64,000 bases of DNA, from contig JAIYDB010000055.1 in NCBI GenBank assembly GCA_027487695.1, forward strand, positions 1 to 64,000, written 5' to 3'. The stretch is from Cytophagaceae bacterium. GTDB taxonomy: Bacteria; Bacteroidota; Bacteroidia; Cytophagales; Flexibacteraceae. Positions 54,003 through 64,000 of the stretch are shown piece by piece; the first letter of the stretch is position 1; every line of letters begins with the position of its first letter. The position numbers and the translations under genes were made by a program. The notes below the pieces were generated by a model. That model made no database searches and was not told where the DNA came from. It was given only the letters and a program-made list of their open reading frames with translations.

Positions 54003-57000
54003 ATGAAGAGGCTTCTGCTTTGTGTTTTATTGTTGGTGAGTTGGTTTGGGGTTACACTTGCCCAACCTGCTGACCTTATGAATATGACCTTTAAGCAGGT
54101 AGGTACTGAACAAGGCTTAAGTAATTTATATGTAACCACCGTTTTACGCACCTCGGATGGTTTCCTTTGGATAGGCACTAGAAATGGCTTGCTCAAGTCA
54201 GATGGAGTTAGCTATACCATTTATTCCACTGGTAGCCCAAGTAGTTTGCAGCTAGTAAACAATGTAATTGTGGCCATTAAAGAAATGCCCAATCATAAAT
54301 TGGCAGTGCTTTCTAGTAGAGGGTTAAGCGTTATTGATACCAATGGTGTGGTAATTTCTCAAATGAAAATTGCGCCAGGTATGGCTAATTCTTTACCCTT
54401 AGATGAATACAATGATATACTACCTATTCCAAAAGAAAATGCAGTTTTACTCGCTGGAAAAAGAGCGTTATATCATATTAATTTATCAACTAAAAAGACC
54501 ACAGTTTTTAGTTCAGATAAACGATTATTGAACGGCGTAAATAAATTATTTCCAAGTTCACAAGGTCAGGGTTTTTGGGCATTGACAGAATTTCAGGGAG
54601 GATTGTTTTTTAATTTCGGTAAAGGAAATGTTGTAAAATCAGTGGCTGAAGGCAAAGGGCTAACCACAATGTTTCAGTGGCAAAATAAATTGTATTTTGG
54701 CTTAAGTGCTGGTAATTTATTATTAGTTGACGGAGAGAAAGAAACTTATATTACCGTTGGGAATAAACAAGTACATATATCGGAAATACGAGCTTATCAA
54801 GATAAATTATTGATAGGAACCCAAGAAAGAGGTTTGTTTATTTTAGATAATCAAAGCAATAAAGTGTTAACCTCGTACTACCATACTGTAGGCGATGTAC
54901 AAGGTTTGCCAAGTAATGCCATTACTTCAATAGAAATTGATAATCAGTCTATTATGTGGATTGGAACCAATAATGGCATGGCTATCTTCGACCCTGAGCG
55001 CATCAAATTCAGATACTTTACTAATTTATTCAGAGTTTACGAAGGCGAGCAATATGAGGTAAATGCGGTAGTGCAATTGCCAAGCAAGCAAATATGGGTT
55101 GGTACTTCCAATGGCATAGATATATATACTGAAAAAATGCAATTTAGTAATGCTTTACAATCAATAAAAGGGTTATCACCTACCTTTTTACAAGGAAGTA
55201 TTCAAGAATTAGTTTTACAGAAAAACAACCTTTGGATAGGTGGCACCAACGGCTTGGCATTGCTTACTGCTAATAATGGTAAATTTCTAAAGCAATGGAG
55301 TAAAGTAGTTATTGGCAATATTGAATATCGTTTAGATGTTACAAGCCTAGTTGCCGAAGCCGATACAGGTTTATGGGTAGGTACCTATGGTAACGGTTTA
55401 TTTTATTTACATATCCCCACAAATACTTGGAAAGTATTTCAATATGCACCAGAATTACAGTTTTCATTAAGTCATAATCAAGTTAACTGTTTGTTGCTTA
55501 CACCCAATTCAGATTTAATTGTGGGCACACGAGCAGGACTTAATTTGTTCAATAGAAAGTATAGTAATTTTGTCGTTTTAAATTGTTATGGCGAAGAAGG
55601 TAAAACACTTTCATCTGACCATATTACAGCTATTGCAAATTATAAGAATAGTATTTGGGTAGGAACTTTAGATGGTGGCTTGAGCGAGTATTCCGAAGGC
55701 AATAAATCGTTTAAAACCTATACCAGTTTAGCAGGAAATCCAGTAACTACCATCCATTCATTGACGGCTCTAGATAATAAACTTTGGGTAACCAGTGGTA
55801 ATAGATTATTTGTTTTAGAAGGTGAAAAAGTAGTGAATCATTACGCATCATCAGCAGGGATACAGTTGCAGCAGTTTACTAAAGCAGCTAGTTATTCAGC
55901 TAACGGACAGCTTATTTTAGGTGGTATTGGTGGTTTAATTGCCTTTAGTCCAGCAGCTATAATTAGGAATAAAGTAAGTCCTAAACCTATTATCACCGCT
56001 ATTCAAATCAATGGAACGGCTATAAGTTTATCTGATCAACTCAACCTAGCTGCCGATGAAAACTATATCAATATCTGGTACACTTCTTTAAATTTAAGTG
56101 CACCCGATGAAAATACTTTCCAATATCGTTTATTAGGTTCAGATACTACTTGGTTGCAAGGAGGTACCTCCAGAACGGTTGCTTTTAATGCCCTAAATCC
56201 TGGTTCTTATACTTTTCAAATAAGGGCATTAAATAACGATGGTATTTCTAGTGAAATTAAAACATTACAAATTAAAATAAACCCTACTATATACGCATCG
56301 TTGTGGTTCAGGATATTGGTTTCTGTAATTGTTCTAAGTATTGTTGGTTATATTTTATATTTAGTAATTAATAAAATTAAGCAAGAAAAAGAAATTGCAG
56401 AGTTTAGCACCCGTCTTACCAGCTTACGCAACCAAGCACTTCAAAGTCAATTAAATCCTCATTTTATTTTTAATGCGCTTAATAGTATTCAAGAAGTTGT
56501 GTTGAGTGGCGATAGTAAAGGCGCAGGAATTTATCTGAATAAGTTTGCCCGCTTACTTAGAAGAATATTAGAATACAGCGGTATTGATACCATTTCCTTA
56601 ACTGAGGAATTGAAAACGATTGAATTGTATTTGGAAGTAGAAAGCCTACGGTTCAGTAATGAATTTAATTGGGAAGTACAATTAGAAGAAGATTTAGATA
56701 CCGACGATTTCCTAATTCCACCATTATTACTGCAACCCATTGTTGAAAATGCGATATGGCACGGTTTAAGACAAAAGCCAGGTAATAAGGTAATTACCAT
56801 AGATATTGCATTGCTTCAAACTCAACTTTCCATCGGAATTACTGATAATGGGGTAGGGTTTAATTCTGATGAGCCTAAACCTGCTACACAACACAAGAAA
56901 AAAAGTCTTGGTATTAGCTTTACTAAAGAAAGATTATCGGTCTATGATGCCCAGCAAGGCACCGTTAGTACAATGGATATTAGCCCTTCAGTAACTGGAG

Positions 57001-57053
57001 GTACCCAAGTATTGCTTTTAATAGGACAAAGTTGGTTACTTACAGAAAAATAG
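54003..57053 (+). CDS. Two-component regulator propeller sensor histidine kinase (LytS-type)
   Basis: This 1016-residue membrane sensor begins with a signal peptide (about 1-20). A periplasmic double propeller of regulator-type repeats (for example FLWIGTRNGLLKSDGVSYT, MWIGTNNGMAIFDPE, LWVGTYGNGLFYLHI) spans about 30-680, followed by a Y_Y_Y domain at about 693-759. A transmembrane helix at about 766-790 leads to a cytoplasmic His_kinase-type domain with phospho-accepting His820 in SQLNPHFIFNALNS and an ATPase region VENAIWHGLRQKPGN. It is 41 bp upstream of a LytTR regulator and forms a two-component pair. The ligand is unknown; related Bacteroidota sensors often sense polysaccharides, but here no PUL genes follow. 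Confidence 0.95.
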   Translation: MKRLLLCVLLLVSWFGVTLAQPADLMNMTFKQVGTEQGLSNLYVTTVLRTSDGFLWIGTRNGLLKSDGVSYTIYSTGSPSSLQLVNNVIVAIKEMPNHKLAVLSSRGLSVIDTNGVVISQMKIAPGMANSLPLDEYNDILPIPKENAVLLAGKRALYHINLSTKKTTVFSSDKRLLNGVNKLFPSSQGQGFWALTEFQGGLFFNFGKGNVVKSVAEGKGLTTMFQWQNKLYFGLSAGNLLLVDGEKETYITVGNKQVHISEIRAYQDKLLIGTQERGLFILDNQSNKVLTSYYHTVGDVQGLPSNAITSIEIDNQSIMWIGTNNGMAIFDPERIKFRYFTNLFRVYEGEQYEVNAVVQLPSKQIWVGTSNGIDIYTEKMQFSNALQSIKGLSPTFLQGSIQELVLQKNNLWIGGTNGLALLTANNGKFLKQWSKVVIGNIEYRLDVTSLVAEADTGLWVGTYGNGLFYLHIPTNTWKVFQYAPELQFSLSHNQVNCLLLTPNSDLIVGTRAGLNLFNRKYSNFVVLNCYGEEGKTLSSDHITAIANYKNSIWVGTLDGGLSEYSEGNKSFKTYTSLAGNPVTTIHSLTALDNKLWVTSGNRLFVLEGEKVVNHYASSAGIQLQQFTKAASYSANGQLILGGIGGLIAFSPAAIIRNKVSPKPIITAIQINGTAISLSDQLNLAADENYINIWYTSLNLSAPDENTFQYRLLGSDTTWLQGGTSRTVAFNALNPGSYTFQIRALNNDGISSEIKTLQIKINPTIYASLWFRILVSVIVLSIVGYILYLVINKIKQEKEIAEFSTRLTSLRNQALQSQLNPHFIFNALNSIQEVVLSGDSKGAGIYLNKFARLLRRILEYSGIDTISLTEELKTIELYLEVESLRFSNEFNWEVQLEEDLDTDDFLIPPLLLQPIVENAIWHGLRQKPGNKVITIDIALLQTQLSIGITDNGVGFNSDEPKPATQHKKKSLGISFTKERLSVYDAQQGTVSTMDISPSVTGGTQVLLLIGQSWLLTEK

Positions 57054-57094: not shown

Positions 57095-57859
57095 ATGAAT
57101 CAACTACGTGCCGCTATTATTGACGATGAAGAACGCGCCCGTCAGCTTCTTGCCCACTTGTTAGAAGAACATGCACCAGAAGTAAAGGTGGTTTTCTCAA
57201 CAGGTAATCCTATTGAAGGCTTAAACTACTTGAAAACCAGCGACTGCGACGTAGTTTTCTTAGATATAGAGATGCCCGGTACCACTGGTTTTCAATTGCT
57301 TGAGCAGCTAGGCGAGGTAGATTGTGATGTGATTTTCACTACTGCTTATGGTGAGTATGCTATCAAAGCGATCAGATATAGCGCTATTGATTATCTTCTA
57401 AAGCCAATAGATACCGAAGAACTTAAGGCTGCGGTAAGTAGAGTGAGCCAAAAAGGAAACAAGAAAGGCGGCATAGAACCTCAGCAATTAGAAATATTAA
57501 TGGGTCTGCTAAAAAATACTGATAAGCCTCCCGTAAAAATTACCATCCCTACTTTGGAAGGATTTTTGTTTGTGCCAGTAGCTGATATTATCCACTGTTT
57601 AGGCGATACAAATTATACCCATATTCACCTAAAGGACGGACAGAAGATATTGAGCAGCAAGAGTTTAAAGGTATATGAAGAAATGTTAGCACCTCATAAT
57701 TTTTTCAGAATACATAAGAGCCACCTCATTAATATGAGCTACCTAACTAAGTACGTAAAAGGCGAAGGAGGCAAGGTAATTATGACCGATGGAAGTGAAT
57801 TAGAAGTGAGTCGTAGGAAAAAAGAAGAATTTCTTGGTAAAATTGGGAGATCAAATTAA
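57095..57859 (+). CDS. LytTR-type response regulator
   Basis: This 254-residue regulator has a receiver (about 1-125) with Asp10/Asp11 and phospho-accepting Asp57 in DVVFLDIEMPG, and a LytTR DNA-binding domain (about 145-250) with TNYTHIHLKDGQKI, FRIHKSHLINMSYL and GSELEVSRRKKEEF. It is partnered with the kinase at 54003. It ends eight bases before a GTG-start gene, so that gene is probably translated with it. Confidence 0.96.
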   Translation: MNQLRAAIIDDEERARQLLAHLLEEHAPEVKVVFSTGNPIEGLNYLKTSDCDVVFLDIEMPGTTGFQLLEQLGEVDCDVIFTTAYGEYAIKAIRYSAIDYLLKPIDTEELKAAVSRVSQKGNKKGGIEPQQLEILMGLLKNTDKPPVKITIPTLEGFLFVPVADIIHCLGDTNYTHIHLKDGQKILSSKSLKVYEEMLAPHNFFRIHKSHLINMSYLTKYVKGEGGKVIMTDGSELEVSRRKKEEFLGKIGRSN

Positions 57860-57867
57860 TTGAACCC

Positions 57868-59172
57868 GTGTATTACTCCCAGCAAATAGTTCCTGATCAA
57901 GATATTCTAGACCTTGCCAAAGCAAGACAGTTATCTTTGTTTTTCGATAGTGTAAAGCCTATGCTACCGTTATGGTATGGGCTTGCGTTACGTATTACAA
58001 ATTCGGAATTAAGTGCGAGTAGGTTATTACAATACGGTGTTCTTCAAATTTGGCAACAGCCAGATAGTTTTAGACCAGATTTTGGAGCTATTTGGTGGCA
58101 AGTAATTACCAGAATGCAAGAGCGTAGCAAGTTTTTAGGTGCTCAACTAGAAACCGACTATCAGCCATCCGGGTTATCGTTGAAGCTACCTGCCGATAGA
58201 ATATTATATAACCTCCTAATTGAAGGCAAAACCCTTACAGAAGCAAGTGCACAACTTAATATTTTACCAAGTTTAGCCGCCGATCGCTTGTCCACTGCAT
58301 TGCTTGAACTTTATAGTTTTGCCAATGAAGAAATTTTAAGTGAAGCAGATCTGTTTACGCTGAAAGCAATAAACAACAGGTTACTTCAAATTGAATTTGC
58401 TGAAGAACAGTGGGTAGATATTGCTGCTATACAGCAACTTGTTCCTAAAGCTATGCTTGCATTAGAATGCTTTTGTGTACAATACGCTCGCGTTTTGCCA
58501 GAGAATCTACAAGTTTCACTTTCAGAAACACTTAGGAATGTTCAGCTACCTGCTAATACCGACTACGGCATAAAAGTAGAACCCTTGGATCCTACTCTGG
58601 CAGTAACTACCAAAACAAAGCTTATAGGCTATCAGGTTGGTGTGGCACTTATGGGGATAGGATTAGTGATACTTGGATTCTTACTTATCCAAACCTATTT
58701 GCGTCTTTCAAAACAAGGGGAAGAGTTATTGTTACAACAAAAAGAAAAGGAGATACTGTACCAGAATTTCTTGCGTACCCAAAAGCGTAACGAAGAAACG
58801 GACCAAACCATGAGCCTTATTCAGCGAGAGAAGGCAACAGTGTTTTATTTAAAGAGTACCAGTTACGCCCCAGAGTCTGATATTATTGTTTTTTGGAGTA
58901 AGAGAAGCGGTAGAGTATTTACCTATTTGAATAAGCTACAACCGCCGGCTAAGAACAATGTGTATAAGATTTGGGCTATTCAGAGGATAAATACAGGCAT
59001 CCCTGTGTTTAAAAGTCTTGCACTTTTACCTAGTAATACCAAAGACCAAACGCTAGTATCGGCAGGGATAGCCCAAAATGCCGATGGCTTTGTAGTGACT
59101 GAAGAAACTGATCCAAACGTAAAAAACCTTACAACCGACAGAATTGTGGCACAATTTCCTGTTGCATATTAA
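57868..59172 (+). CDS. Predicted sigma-like / anti-sigma-like membrane fusion protein, GTG start
   Basis: This 434-residue protein starts at GTG 57868, eight bases after the LytTR regulator. Residues about 20-85 read like ECF sigma region 2 (LWYGLALRITNSELSASRLL, IWQQPDSFRPDFG, WWQVITR). Residues about 105-150 read like region 4 (EGKTLTEASAQLNILPSLAA, RLSTALLELYSF). A linker follows, then one transmembrane helix at about 253-278 (VALMGIGLVILGFLLIQTYL), a coiled coil at about 280-322, and an RskA-like C-terminal domain at about 324-434 (LKSTSYAPESDIIVFWSK, YKIWAIQRINTG). RskA-type domains are normally on separate anti-sigma factors. Whether the sigma part still binds RNA polymerase is unclear; the match is by eye and may be degenerate. 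Confidence 0.62.
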   Translation: MYYSQQIVPDQDILDLAKARQLSLFFDSVKPMLPLWYGLALRITNSELSASRLLQYGVLQIWQQPDSFRPDFGAIWWQVITRMQERSKFLGAQLETDYQPSGLSLKLPADRILYNLLIEGKTLTEASAQLNILPSLAADRLSTALLELYSFANEEILSEADLFTLKAINNRLLQIEFAEEQWVDIAAIQQLVPKAMLALECFCVQYARVLPENLQVSLSETLRNVQLPANTDYGIKVEPLDPTLAVTTKTKLIGYQVGVALMGIGLVILGFLLIQTYLRLSKQGEELLLQQKEKEILYQNFLRTQKRNEETDQTMSLIQREKATVFYLKSTSYAPESDIIVFWSKRSGRVFTYLNKLQPPAKNNVYKIWAIQRINTGIPVFKSLALLPSNTKDQTLVSAGIAQNADGFVVTEETDPNVKNLTTDRIVAQFPVAY

Positions 59173-59465: not shown

Positions 59466-62400
59466 ATGAACGCATTATACAAAGGTGGTACTCCTCCTTC
59501 TGAATCGGGCTACTCACTGTTTCAACAAAATCTTACACGAACTGCGTTCGCTGTATTGATGATGTTGTTTTCAGTAGCCTCTTTACACGCACAAACGATT
59601 ACCAACTATGCGGTATCTAGGGCTACTAATGGTAGTTTTCAAGATATGAGTTCAGGTACTACTACTATTCTTGCTCCTGTAGCGGCAGGATATGATGGTG
59701 GGGCTACCTCGGTTCAAACATTGCCATTTGACTTCTGGTTCATGGGTGTCCGCTATACTCAAGCTTCTTTCAATGTTAATGGGGGGTGGGCATTAGGCAG
59801 TACAGCAGTTACCATTGGTACTGCTACACCAGTAATTACCGCTAACAGGGCTATTTTTGGAGTAATTAACGGTGATAATTCTGTTTTGGCAAGTACTGCT
59901 CAAGCCGATGCTGGTATTTATTCTAAAATTTTTGGAACTGCTCCTAATAGAACTTACGTAGTTGAGGTGAGAGGACATGTTGTTCCTTGGGATAATAGAA
60001 CTACAGGAGGTAACACAAGTAACTACCAAATCTGGTTGGAAGAAACCACTAATAAGATTTATTATGTATATGGTTCTGTTGTTCATAGAACTGCAGCAGT
60101 TAGGGAAAGTCAGGTATTTATAAGTGACGGTAGTGGTACAGTTTCAAGACCGCTTTATGTTACCGCAACAGCTCCAACTGCGCCAGCTACTGTAGTAACT
60201 TCAACTACTGCCCCCCTTACAACTGCCAGAATAATTAGTACCGGCACTGCTAATTCACCTTTGCCAATTATTAATGGTGGTGCATCAAATGGTTCTAGAG
60301 TTGTTTTAACATTTGACCCAACAGCAGCTGCAACACCTGTATCTGCTCCTACTGGTTTAACTGTTACAGGTGCGGGTACCTTAAATCTAAGTTGGACTGA
60401 TGCTAGTAATGAATTAGGATATGAAGTTTATTATTCAACTTCAGGTGCTGACTTTGCAATTAACCCTAGTGCTACGAGTAATGCTACTTATGGTAGGGTT
60501 TCCCTTGCTCAGAATGCTACTTCTACAAGCATTACAGGATTAACAGTTGGTGCTACATATTTCGTTAAATTATTCTCAAGAAGAGAAGGTTTGTCAAGTG
60601 CTGTAACAGGAAGTGCTACAATTGTAAATACGCCTGTTTCTCCTTCATCTGTTTCTGTTGTTCAAGGAGGTACTGGTCCTATTGCTCAAGGAGTTAACAA
60701 TGTTCCTTTATTGCGATTAGATGTTCCAGCTTCTGGTAATGTGGGTACTTATTCATTAAGTTCATTATCATTAAATTTAGCATCAAGTACCAATTCAAGT
60801 TCAGTTGGTAATGTTCGTATATACAGGACTACTACTACTACTTTTTCTACTACCAACCAATTAGGTACTGGAGGTATAAACTGGACTGGTTCAAGTCTAA
60901 CAATAAACCTAGCTAATGCTGGTACTGGTTTTGATTTCGGTTTTGGTGCTGGTACTAACTATATTTGGGTAGCTGCCAACGTAACAAATAACGCATCCCC
61001 AGGAACTAATCTTGATTTATCTGTTACAGGTAATGTAACTTTCAATCTTTCTGGAGGTGGGTCCACTTCTTTAACGCCATCTACTCCAGACCCTACTGGA
61101 ACTTATAATATCTTTGTTCCAATTGGAAGTTATAATACTTCAAGAACAACTGGTGGATATTATGCTCAACCAACGTCAAACATAGCAACTTATCAGTCGG
61201 GTATAGCTTTAGATGATGCTGCAGGGGCATTAACTACTTTCCCTGCATCATTTACCTTTAGTATGGGTGGTACCACCTACACACAATTTAGTGCTAACTC
61301 AAATGGTCAGGTTGTTTTAGGTAGTCCTGTTATTGTAGGTAACCAAAGTACTCCTTTGGCTAGCCAGCCAGTTCTTAGTGCAATTTCAGGTGATAACGCA
61401 ATCATTTCTACTGGAATTTTGGCAACAGCTTCTTCTAGAACCTTTATTTCCGGGACAGCTCCGAATAGAATTTTCGTAATTGAATATAGTGGTTTTGCTA
61501 TACCGTATGATAATTACGCTTCAATTGCTTCATTCCCATCAAGTTTCCAAGTACAATTAGAAGAAACAACTAACATTGTTCGCTATGTATATGGTCCTAT
61601 TTTAGATAGAAGTATTTTAAACAGTACTGGAAGAAGTGCATTTATTTCTAGCGGAACTGCAAGTGCAACCAATTCAATGTATATTGATGGCACTACAGGT
61701 TTGCCTGTAGCAACTGGTACTGCATCAACAATTACCGAAACATCTACTACTGCTGGTGCTGCATTCCCACACATTAGTGGTGGTGCCGATGGTGCTAGAG
61801 TTGTTTACACATTTAGCCCAGTTGGAGCGCCTGCAACAGTAACTGCTCCTGGTAGTTTTACATCGCCTTCACAAACTACAACTACAATTGATCTTTCTTG
61901 GACCGATGCTTCAAATGAGAATCAATACATTTTATGGTATTCTAACACAAATGCAAACTTTGATGTAAATACTGTCCCTACTACTAATACAGCAGCAGGC
62001 GGAAGATTCATTTTAGCAGAGAATACTACATCTCAAACAGTAACGGGTTTATCAGGTACTACGCCTTACTTCTTTAAGCTTGTGGCTTTAAAAGGTAATG
62101 CTTCTGCGGTTGTTTCTACTAGTGCAAGTTTGCTTCCAGAAGATGTTTCTGTTGCTAGTGTTGCAGTAAGTCAGGTAACTCCAGTTAATGTATTTAGAAA
62201 TCAAACCAATATTCCTGTTTTACAGCTTACCCTTTCAACAACAGGTAATGCAAATACTTACTCAATAGATAATATTAATTTGAGTAACATTTCTTCAGGA
62301 ATTTCTGGTATCAAAGTTTTCAGAACTAGTACGCCAACCTTTAGTGCAACAGCTCAATTAGGAACTGGGGCAATTAGTGTTTCTGGAAGCACGCTAACAA

Positions 62401-64000
62401 TAGATGCTTCTAATGCTGGTGCAGGCTTTACCACAGGTATTGGCGGTGGTACTACCTATTTATGGATTACGGCTGATATTTCAAGCTCTGCATCTTTTGG
62501 AGGTTCAATTGATTTTGCAATTAGTGGCAATATTCAATTCACTACTACTGCAGGTAGTATTGAACTTACTCCAACTACGCCAAACCCAGCTGGAGCTCAT
62601 ACTGTAATCCCTCAAATTTCAGATTACACTGGTACCCGAGGTTTAAACAGCGCATTTGCTCCTCAAACAACAACGCCAGTAGTAATTCACGCTGCTGAAG
62701 TAGATGATGCAAACTCAACTGTTCAAACCATTCCGTTTACTTTTACTTATGCGGGAAATAACTTCACTAATCTCGTAGTTACTTCTAATGGTCAAATTGT
62801 ATTAGGTAACACCGTTCCTGGTTCAAATAGTATTTCTGCACCAGGATCTGGATTAGCCTTACTTGCTCCTGTAACAGGTGATAACGAAGTAGGTTTTTCG
62901 CCTTCTTCAATTAGAAGTTACGTTTCTGGAACATCACCTAACCGCATATTTGTAATTGACTTCAATGGTTATAAAATTCCTTATGATGTTTCTAATGCGG
63001 CATTCCAATCAAGTTTCCAAGTTTGGTTAGAAGAAACCACTAATGCTGTGAGATTTGTTTATGGGCCAGTTATTAACGGTGTTTCTACTAGCCCTACTGC
63101 ACGAACAATTAATGCATTTATTTCAAATGGTGCTGCAAGTGCAAACAACTCAATCTACATCAATGGAACTACTGGTTTACCTGTAGCTACAGGTACTGCT
63201 CCAGGTATTTCTGAGGGTACTGGAACTGCTGGTACTGCGTTCCCATCAATTAGTGGCGGAACCGATGGTTCAAGAGTTGTTTATACATTTACTCCAAATG
63301 CTTTGCCTGCGGTTTCAACACCAACAGGATTTACGTCAACAGGGCAAACTACCAATTCAATTGAATTATCTTGGTCAGATGTTAGTGATGAACACGGATA
63401 CATTTTATGGTATTCAAACTCATCGGCAAGCTTTAATGAAAATGCAATTACTGCGAATACTGGTTTAGAAGGAAAGTTATTCTTAGCGGCAAACACAACT
63501 ACGTTTGATTTAACTGGCTTAACATCAAATACACCATATTATTTCAAACTTGCCGCAGTTAAAGGTAACACTTCTGGTTTTGCTACTTTAACCCAAAGTG
63601 TAATTGCTCAGGCAGTTGCTGTATCTGGAGTAGCTGTAAGTCAGGCTGGTACTGGTTTATTAACTAGAGGTGCTACTAATGTACCATTACTTCAATTAAC
63701 AGTATCAACCACGGGTAACTCTAATACATACAACTTACAATCAATTACGCTTGGTTTAGGTTCAGGAGTTACTGCTGGAACTATTACAGGCGTTCGTATT
63801 TTCAGAACTACAACTCCAGTATTTAGTACTGCAAATCAAGTGGGTACTGGTACAATTAGCTTCAGTGGAACTAGCTTAACTATTACTTCTACTAATGCTG
63901 GTGCTGGTTTTGCAACTACATATTCTCCAGGAACAAATTATTTCTGGATTACTGGAAATATTGCTAGTGGCGCTACAATTCTTGCTACTGCCGATGTACA
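59466..64000 (+). CDS. Giant secreted repeat protein with fibronectin type III domains (cut by the window end)
   Basis: The ATG at 59466 opens a frame with no stop to the window edge (1511 codons seen). A long signal region ends near residue 43 (FAVLMMLFSVASLHAQ). The chain is then built of about 500-residue repeats: (A) a domain with PFTFTYAGNNFTNL and SNGQIVLG, (B) a fibronectin type III domain with LNLSWTDASNELGYEVYYS, and (C) a domain with TNQLGTGGINWTGSSLTI and NYIWVAANV. It is Ser/Thr/Gly-rich and contains few Cys. The size, repeats and host suggest a T9SS-secreted adhesin-like surface protein, with any sorting domain beyond the window. It is downstream of the sensor/regulator/fusion genes. 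Confidence 0.86.
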   Translation, partial: MNALYKGGTPPSESGYSLFQQNLTRTAFAVLMMLFSVASLHAQTITNYAVSRATNGSFQDMSSGTTTILAPVAAGYDGGATSVQTLPFDFWFMGVRYTQASFNVNGGWALGSTAVTIGTATPVITANRAIFGVINGDNSVLASTAQADAGIYSKIFGTAPNRTYVVEVRGHVVPWDNRTTGGNTSNYQIWLEETTNKIYYVYGSVVHRTAAVRESQVFISDGSGTVSRPLYVTATAPTAPATVVTSTTAPLTTARIISTGTANSPLPIINGGASNGSRVVLTFDPTAAATPVSAPTGLTVTGAGTLNLSWTDASNELGYEVYYSTSGADFAINPSATSNATYGRVSLAQNATSTSITGLTVGATYFVKLFSRREGLSSAVTGSATIVNTPVSPSSVSVVQGGTGPIAQGVNNVPLLRLDVPASGNVGTYSLSSLSLNLASSTNSSSVGNVRIYRTTTTTFSTTNQLGTGGINWTGSSLTINLANAGTGFDFGFGAGTNYIWVAANVTNNASPGTNLDLSVTGNVTFNLSGGGSTSLTPSTPDPTGTYNIFVPIGSYNTSRTTGGYYAQPTSNIATYQSGIALDDAAGALTTFPASFTFSMGGTTYTQFSANSNGQVVLGSPVIVGNQSTPLASQPVLSAISGDNAIISTGILATASSRTFISGTAPNRIFVIEYSGFAIPYDNYASIASFPSSFQVQLEETTNIVRYVYGPILDRSILNSTGRSAFISSGTASATNSMYIDGTTGLPVATGTASTITETSTTAGAAFPHISGGADGARVVYTFSPVGAPATVTAPGSFTSPSQTTTTIDLSWTDASNENQYILWYSNTNANFDVNTVPTTNTAAGGRFILAENTTSQTVTGLSGTTPYFFKLVALKGNASAVVSTSASLLPEDVSVASVAVSQVTPVNVFRNQTNIPVLQLTLSTTGNANTYSIDNINLSNISSGISGIKVFRTSTPTFSATAQLGTGAISVSGSTLTIDASNAGAGFTTGIGGGTTYLWITADISSSASFGGSIDFAISGNIQFTTTAGSIELTPTTPNPAGAHTVIPQISDYTGTRGLNSAFAPQTTTPVVIHAAEVDDANSTVQTIPFTFTYAGNNFTNLVVTSNGQIVLGNTVPGSNSISAPGSGLALLAPVTGDNEVGFSPSSIRSYVSGTSPNRIFVIDFNGYKIPYDVSNAAFQSSFQVWLEETTNAVRFVYGPVINGVSTSPTARTINAFISNGAASANNSIYINGTTGLPVATGTAPGISEGTGTAGTAFPSISGGTDGSRVVYTFTPNALPAVSTPTGFTSTGQTTNSIELSWSDVSDEHGYILWYSNSSASFNENAITANTGLEGKLFLAANTTTFDLTGLTSNTPYYFKLAAVKGNTSGFATLTQSVIAQAVAVSGVAVSQAGTGLLTRGATNVPLLQLTVSTTGNSNTYNLQSITLGLGSGVTAGTITGVRIFRTTTPVFSTANQVGTGTISFSGTSLTITSTNAGAGFATTYSPGTNYFWITGNIASGATILATADV
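59620..64000 (+). repeat. Three ~1.5-kb internal repeats in the giant gene
   Basis: Anchors show the period: the Trp codon of the LSW(T/S)D fibronectin motif lies at 60393, 61899 and 63372 (spacing 1506 and 1473 nt). The SNGQ(V/I)VLG codons lie at about 61302 and 62787 (1485 nt), with a degenerate first copy near 59779. The third unit is cut by the window end. The repeats are diverged in DNA, so they are old or held by selection on protein. Confidence 0.85.

Follow-up and report, generated by a model that had tools for sequence, protein, structure and literature searches.

A single-chain SigK/RskA-type protein with a degenerate sigma half, encoded next to sensor kinase and LytTR regulator genes in a Cytophagaceae bacterium

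The locus described here raises the question of whether a protein that carries ECF-sigma-like and RskA-like anti-sigma parts in one chain is a tethered sigma factor that can be set free, or a membrane protein whose sigma half no longer works as one. We analysed a stretch of 64,000 nucleotides (the window) from the genome of a Cytophagaceae bacterium. An open reading frame with no interruption in frame was confirmed at positions 57868-59172. The chance of a 434-codon frame staying open was 1e-13, and its coding score, computed from codon usage in 27 genes within the 64-kb window, was 0.25 bits per codon in its own frame and negative in the other frames. The encoded chain begins with regions 2 and 4 of an ECF sigma, continues with an anti-sigma remnant, one transmembrane helix and a coiled coil, and ends in an RskA_C domain. 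The features of the locus are:

54003-57053, + strand: Reg_prop / Y_Y_Y / His_kinase sensor kinase (Pfam), separated by 41 bp from the LytTR gene
57095-57859, + strand: LytTR response regulator, the next upstream gene (Response_reg E 1.9e-22, LytTR E 2.6e-18)
57868-59172, + strand: fused sigma/anti-sigma gene, GTG start, 434 aa, 8 bp 3' of the LytTR gene
57889-58152, + strand: degenerate sigma region 2, residues 8-95 (Pfam Sigma70_r2, ungapped profile and consensus comparison)
58174-58323, + strand: degenerate sigma region 4, residues 103-152 (ungapped profile; modelled helices 107-117, 123-129 and 134-151)
58342-58542, + strand: cytoplasmic anti-sigma domain remnant, residues 159-225, barely recognisable
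58621-58695, + strand: single transmembrane helix, about residues 252-276 (hydropathy peak)
58696-58827, + strand: periplasmic coiled-coil stalk, residues 277-320 (modelled helix and alignment to the matching part of relatives)
58828-59169, + strand: RskA_C periplasmic beta domain, residues 321-434, the best-kept part

Both halves were recognised by profile searches. Pfam Sigma70_r2 matched residues 32-73 (E 8.8e-4 with the whole protein, E 1.9e-4 with residues 1-156) and RskA_C matched residues 304-414 (E 1.8e-5), each slightly below its curated cut-off (21.6 vs 24 bits and 25.4 vs 29.4 bits, respectively). NCBIfam models identified an ECF sigma (E 3.5e-4) and an anti-sigma (E 5.5e-6) in the same protein. 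No Pfam region 4 model matched it at E<=10, and a PDB sequence search returned no match. Ungapped profiles made from relatives detected sigma2 (z 8.0) and sigma4 (z 5.9) in the expected register, and 0 of 20,000 shuffles reached either value. Likewise, a sigma profile from relatives scored 20.7 bits on the first 156 residues (best of 1000 shuffles, 8.1 bits), and the corresponding anti-sigma profile scored 68 bits on the fusion protein; the cytoplasmic anti-sigma domain alone was not significant (ungapped-profile z 2.3 and 1.8). Hydropathy peaked at 2.45 at window starts 256-257, with the next peak elsewhere at 1.34. These results bear out the preliminary description, which had read sigma regions 2 and 4, one transmembrane helix and an RskA-like C-terminus in one frame; its placing of the sigma part inside and RskA_C outside agrees by homology, and its caution that the N-terminal match is weakly conserved was accurate. 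The sigma assignment was recovered by Pfam for region 2 and not for region 4.

A structure model built from 25 alignment rows (pLDDT 72) gave region 2 as helical and region 4 as a helix-turn-helix, together with a 69-residue membrane-crossing helix unbroken over residues 252-320 and a beta domain, and the pLDDT of RskA_C was about 75-93 except at the last residues. The top structural match of residues 9-153 was SigK of the SigK-RskA complex (4nqw_A; Z 8.6, 127 residues, rmsd 6.5), followed by other ECF sigmas. As the alignment rows include sigma factors, this match serves as a consistency check only; residues 1-156 folded from the single sequence gave a poor model (pLDDT 57) with no clear match.

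Across 98 related genomes, the top-scoring matches were anti-sigma genes, nearly all immediately 3' of a separate ECF sigma gene, and a sigma gene lay immediately upstream in about 160 of the roughly 170 anti-sigma loci read in detail. The fusion protein is colinear end to end with these adjacent sigma and RskA-like anti-sigma pairs, which are common in Bacteroidota, and a pair profile built without it scored 81.8 bits on it (E 2.5e-24). Its sigma half is similar to the SigK-type partners (27.8 bits against their profile) and unlike the ECF sigmas of the host itself (at most 2.6 bits), which indicates that it was derived from the cognate partner. No SigK-type sigma occurs among the host sigmas found (38-81 bits against that profile, vs mostly >170 for RskA-like partners), and the host genome holds no second RskA_C gene. 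In about 25 genomes of the order, sigma and anti-sigma genes stand in the same frame with one or more stop codons between them, mostly a single one. Since relatives have both genes in one frame in this way, loss of a stop is the simplest origin, and the fusion likely arose through loss of one stop codon between sigma and anti-sigma.

Among 390 genomes of the order, and among the roughly 170 loci read in detail, the full fusion without a stop was found only in this one, a draft assembly of 129 contigs, and no orthologue was found. The preliminary description had suggested looking for the same fusion in related genomes; family (11 genomes), order and class searches yielded no second full-length case, with four candidates scored per genome, so that a very divergent fusion may escape. 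A peptide-pattern scan of 85k species genomes gave no relative with the fusion protein alone as query, and 80 loci of the ordinary pair kind with the alignment as query. Some matches with apparently open frames of 440-550 were rejected as fusions, being two genes read through a stop. Also set aside was a locus in a Chitinophaga pinensis MAG (L171, about 1517-2446), where a sigma N-terminus of ~30 residues lies in frame with an RskA-like anti-sigma; this reflects a deletion or an assembly fault and is unlike the full fusion. In a separate Chitinophaga sp. MAG (L136), sigma/RskA-like pairs occur in tandem, two on one contig.

We then compared the fusion protein with its relatives position by position. 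Of 50 conserved sigma positions, defined on 24 relatives, it keeps 17 (most relatives, 39-50), including 5 of the 18 polar or charged ones. The region 2 consensus residues K60, K72, N83, A85, D87 and R90 are all replaced, leaving R82 as the sole survivor of the region 2.3/2.4 promoter-contact motif (RN.A.D..R; R82, N83, A85, D87, R90). In region 4 the register is visible and the DNA-recognition consensus is gone: the family sequence PLGTVKTR reads LPSLAADR, with only the final R kept, and the net charge of the helix pair is -1, where relatives have a median of +2. W62 and G120 lie 58 residues apart, compared with a median of 87 in 129 sigmas, which makes the linker-bearing stretch 29 residues shorter, and the modelled connector between sigma2 and sigma4 has about 16 residues; a connector of 20 residues in sigma-L is already fully extended through RNA polymerase (PMC6372665). 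The sigma hydrophobic core is retained, and with the region 2.1-2.2 core still in place, W62 included, residual RNA polymerase binding is possible. Of the conserved positions, 4 of 18 are retained in the cytoplasmic anti-sigma domain and 14 of 30 in RskA_C, the best of all parts. These counts indicate that the parts contacting RNA polymerase, promoter and partner were lost together, and that the periplasmic part was best preserved. Between the two readings offered in the preliminary description, a degenerate sigma is thus favoured, and a tethered sigma released by cleavage is disfavoured. At the level of sequence, the fusion, its colinearity with the pairs, its degeneration and the gene order are established.

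In our judgement there is about an even chance that the protein is a membrane-tethered pseudo-sigma with a periplasmic sensor, descended from a SigK/RskA-type operon, not directing transcription and tied to the adjoining kinase/LytTR unit; its inactivity as a sigma, its periplasmic sensing and its coupling to the kinase are all three what we infer. The ancestor would have been a Bacteroidota operon with an ECF sigma followed by a membrane anti-sigma, between which the stop codon was lost. After fusion, promoter-recognition residues and much of the linker would have disappeared from the sigma half, and the signature for sigma binding from the cytoplasmic anti-sigma domain. The resulting single-pass membrane protein would detect a periplasmic cue through its RskA_C domain and direct no transcription, and the sigma-shaped cytosolic domain, if used, would act as a protein-protein module.

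The fusion protein would be made together with the sensor kinase and the LytTR regulator, and is probably part of their signalling unit, as it is encoded directly behind both genes; the sensor kinase gene likely belongs to the same operon. Gene order alone points to this probable coupling, and the same order recurs with an intact pair in one other genome (G769), where an intact sigma/anti-sigma pair is preceded by a Reg_prop kinase (27% identical to that of the window) and a LytTR regulator (46.5% identical), with about 400 bp from regulator to sigma. This locus may be the unfused form of the fusion locus, and it weighs little, being a single case among kinase/regulator operons of a common type. 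About 290 bp 3' of the fusion gene, positions 59466-63998 (+ strand, running past the window edge) encode a Thr/Ser-rich predicted surface protein of >1511 aa, in which fibronectin-like repeats were seen by eye. Genes resembling fasciclin adjoin sigma/RskA-like pairs in several Bacteroidota (L003, L005, L023 and L061; by eye), and none was found in the host genome. The SigK of M. tuberculosis controls fasciclin-domain proteins (MPT70/MPT83).

The joint decay of the sigma and anti-sigma interface parts beside a better-kept RskA_C would also be expected if only RskA_C and its transmembrane stalk (or nothing) were still useful, with the cytosolic parts as drifting filler en route to loss. RskA-like anti-sigma genes without an adjoining sigma gene do exist in two genomes (G049, L013/L073; G076, L017/L126). 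However, sigma2 and sigma4 keep a hydrophobic core and a register that stand well above shuffles, the N-terminal 156 codons are free of stops and frameshifts, and the coding score of the sigma part (0.24) is the same as that of the remainder. We consider such a relic doubtful.

Signal-triggered periplasmic and intramembrane cleavage might instead free a working N-terminal sigma, as in IutY, whose sigma domain is released by Prc and RseP (PMC5411451). The order sigma, transmembrane helix, periplasmic domain is the same in both proteins, the sigma2 core is detectable in the fusion, and the model fits SigK. A sigma freed in this way would nevertheless have to work without the region 2.3/2.4 motif and the recognition helix, with the shortened linker stretch and with a negatively charged region 4 helix pair, and we regard this reading as unlikely.

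It is more improbable still that the pseudo-sigma acts in trans, binding an anti-sigma or RNA polymerase and so altering the activity of another sigma, in the manner of PhyR and NepR. The fold matches of residues 9-153 include sigma-like domains of PhyR (9cb6_C, Z 7.3; 2lfw, Z 6.0), and the host's other ECF-type sigmas are possible targets. But PhyR-type folds match true ECF sigmas just as well, the fusion protein has no receiver domain, and no partner was found. An error in the assembly, or an internal start that yields two proteins from the frame, is scarcely credible: the genome is a draft and the occurrence single, but both halves diverge beyond what one wrong base could cause, and the sigma/anti-sigma junction offers TTG in frame (codons 141 and 145) but neither ATG nor GTG.

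Two further genomes of the order (G052, L014/L072; G126, L062/L071) also carry a degenerate sigma, there as a separate gene adjoining a good RskA-like one. These sigmas scored 98 and 126 bits, respectively, where the 5th percentile among about 160 sigma-flanked loci is 195, and both have lost the region 2.4 and recognition-helix motifs, so they are probably independent pseudo-sigmas. A common origin with the degenerate sigma of the fusion was rejected, as the closest relatives of the latter are ordinary sigmas; the sigma half of the fusion probably degenerated on its own. We tentatively raise the possibility, which we hold well short of probable, that in several Bacteroidota lineages SigK/RskA-type sigmas independently became pseudo-sigmas beside (G052, G126) or fused to (this genome) a membrane anti-sigma, forming a periplasm-sensing device with protein-protein contact, not promoter choice, as its output.

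The locus clearly illustrates the collapse of a sigma/anti-sigma operon into one protein, with sigma function apparently lost and the sensor domain kept. RskA-like proteins would gain a second signalling route besides sigma release if the pseudo-sigma has a partner. The locus also flags Bacteroidota RskA_C genes whose neighbouring 'sigma' should not carry a functional annotation.

Among known systems, the Bacteroidota SigK/RskA-type pairs are like the fusion in domains and order over the whole length and are its likely direct ancestor, whereas they consist of two proteins with intact region 2.4 and region 4 motifs, a full linker and an intact anti-sigma domain. The M. tuberculosis SigK-RskA pair (PDB 4NQW) provides the best structural match, but its proteins are separate and its sigma is active. 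PhyR likewise has a sigma-like domain serving no promoter recognition, as in the pseudo-sigma reading, but is a soluble response regulator that binds NepR. The novelty that the preliminary description implied for a one-chain architecture does not stand, as fused ECF sigma/anti-sigma proteins have been described (PMC5411451, PMC8999054). IutY of Pseudomonas putida (ECF243), compared by its published description, also joins an N-terminal ECF sigma to a membrane anti-sigma in one chain, but it has a working sigma and serves siderophore cell-surface signalling. In ECF48, ECF52 (SCO4117) and ECF53, a zinc-finger membrane anti-sigma is fused to the ECF sigma C-terminus, and some ECF36 members are fused too (PMC8999054); the former three differ from the fusion in that they come from actinobacteria and have 1-2 transmembrane helices and an anti-sigma domain of the zinc-finger kind, and ECF36 differs in its N-terminal extensions. 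Because of its RskA_C domain and a sigma without the defining features, the fusion is assigned neither to the ECF sigmas nor to the IutY-type systems. One-chain sigma/anti-sigma proteins were known before, and the combination of RskA_C with a degenerate sigma is an unusual variant of them rather than a new type of system.
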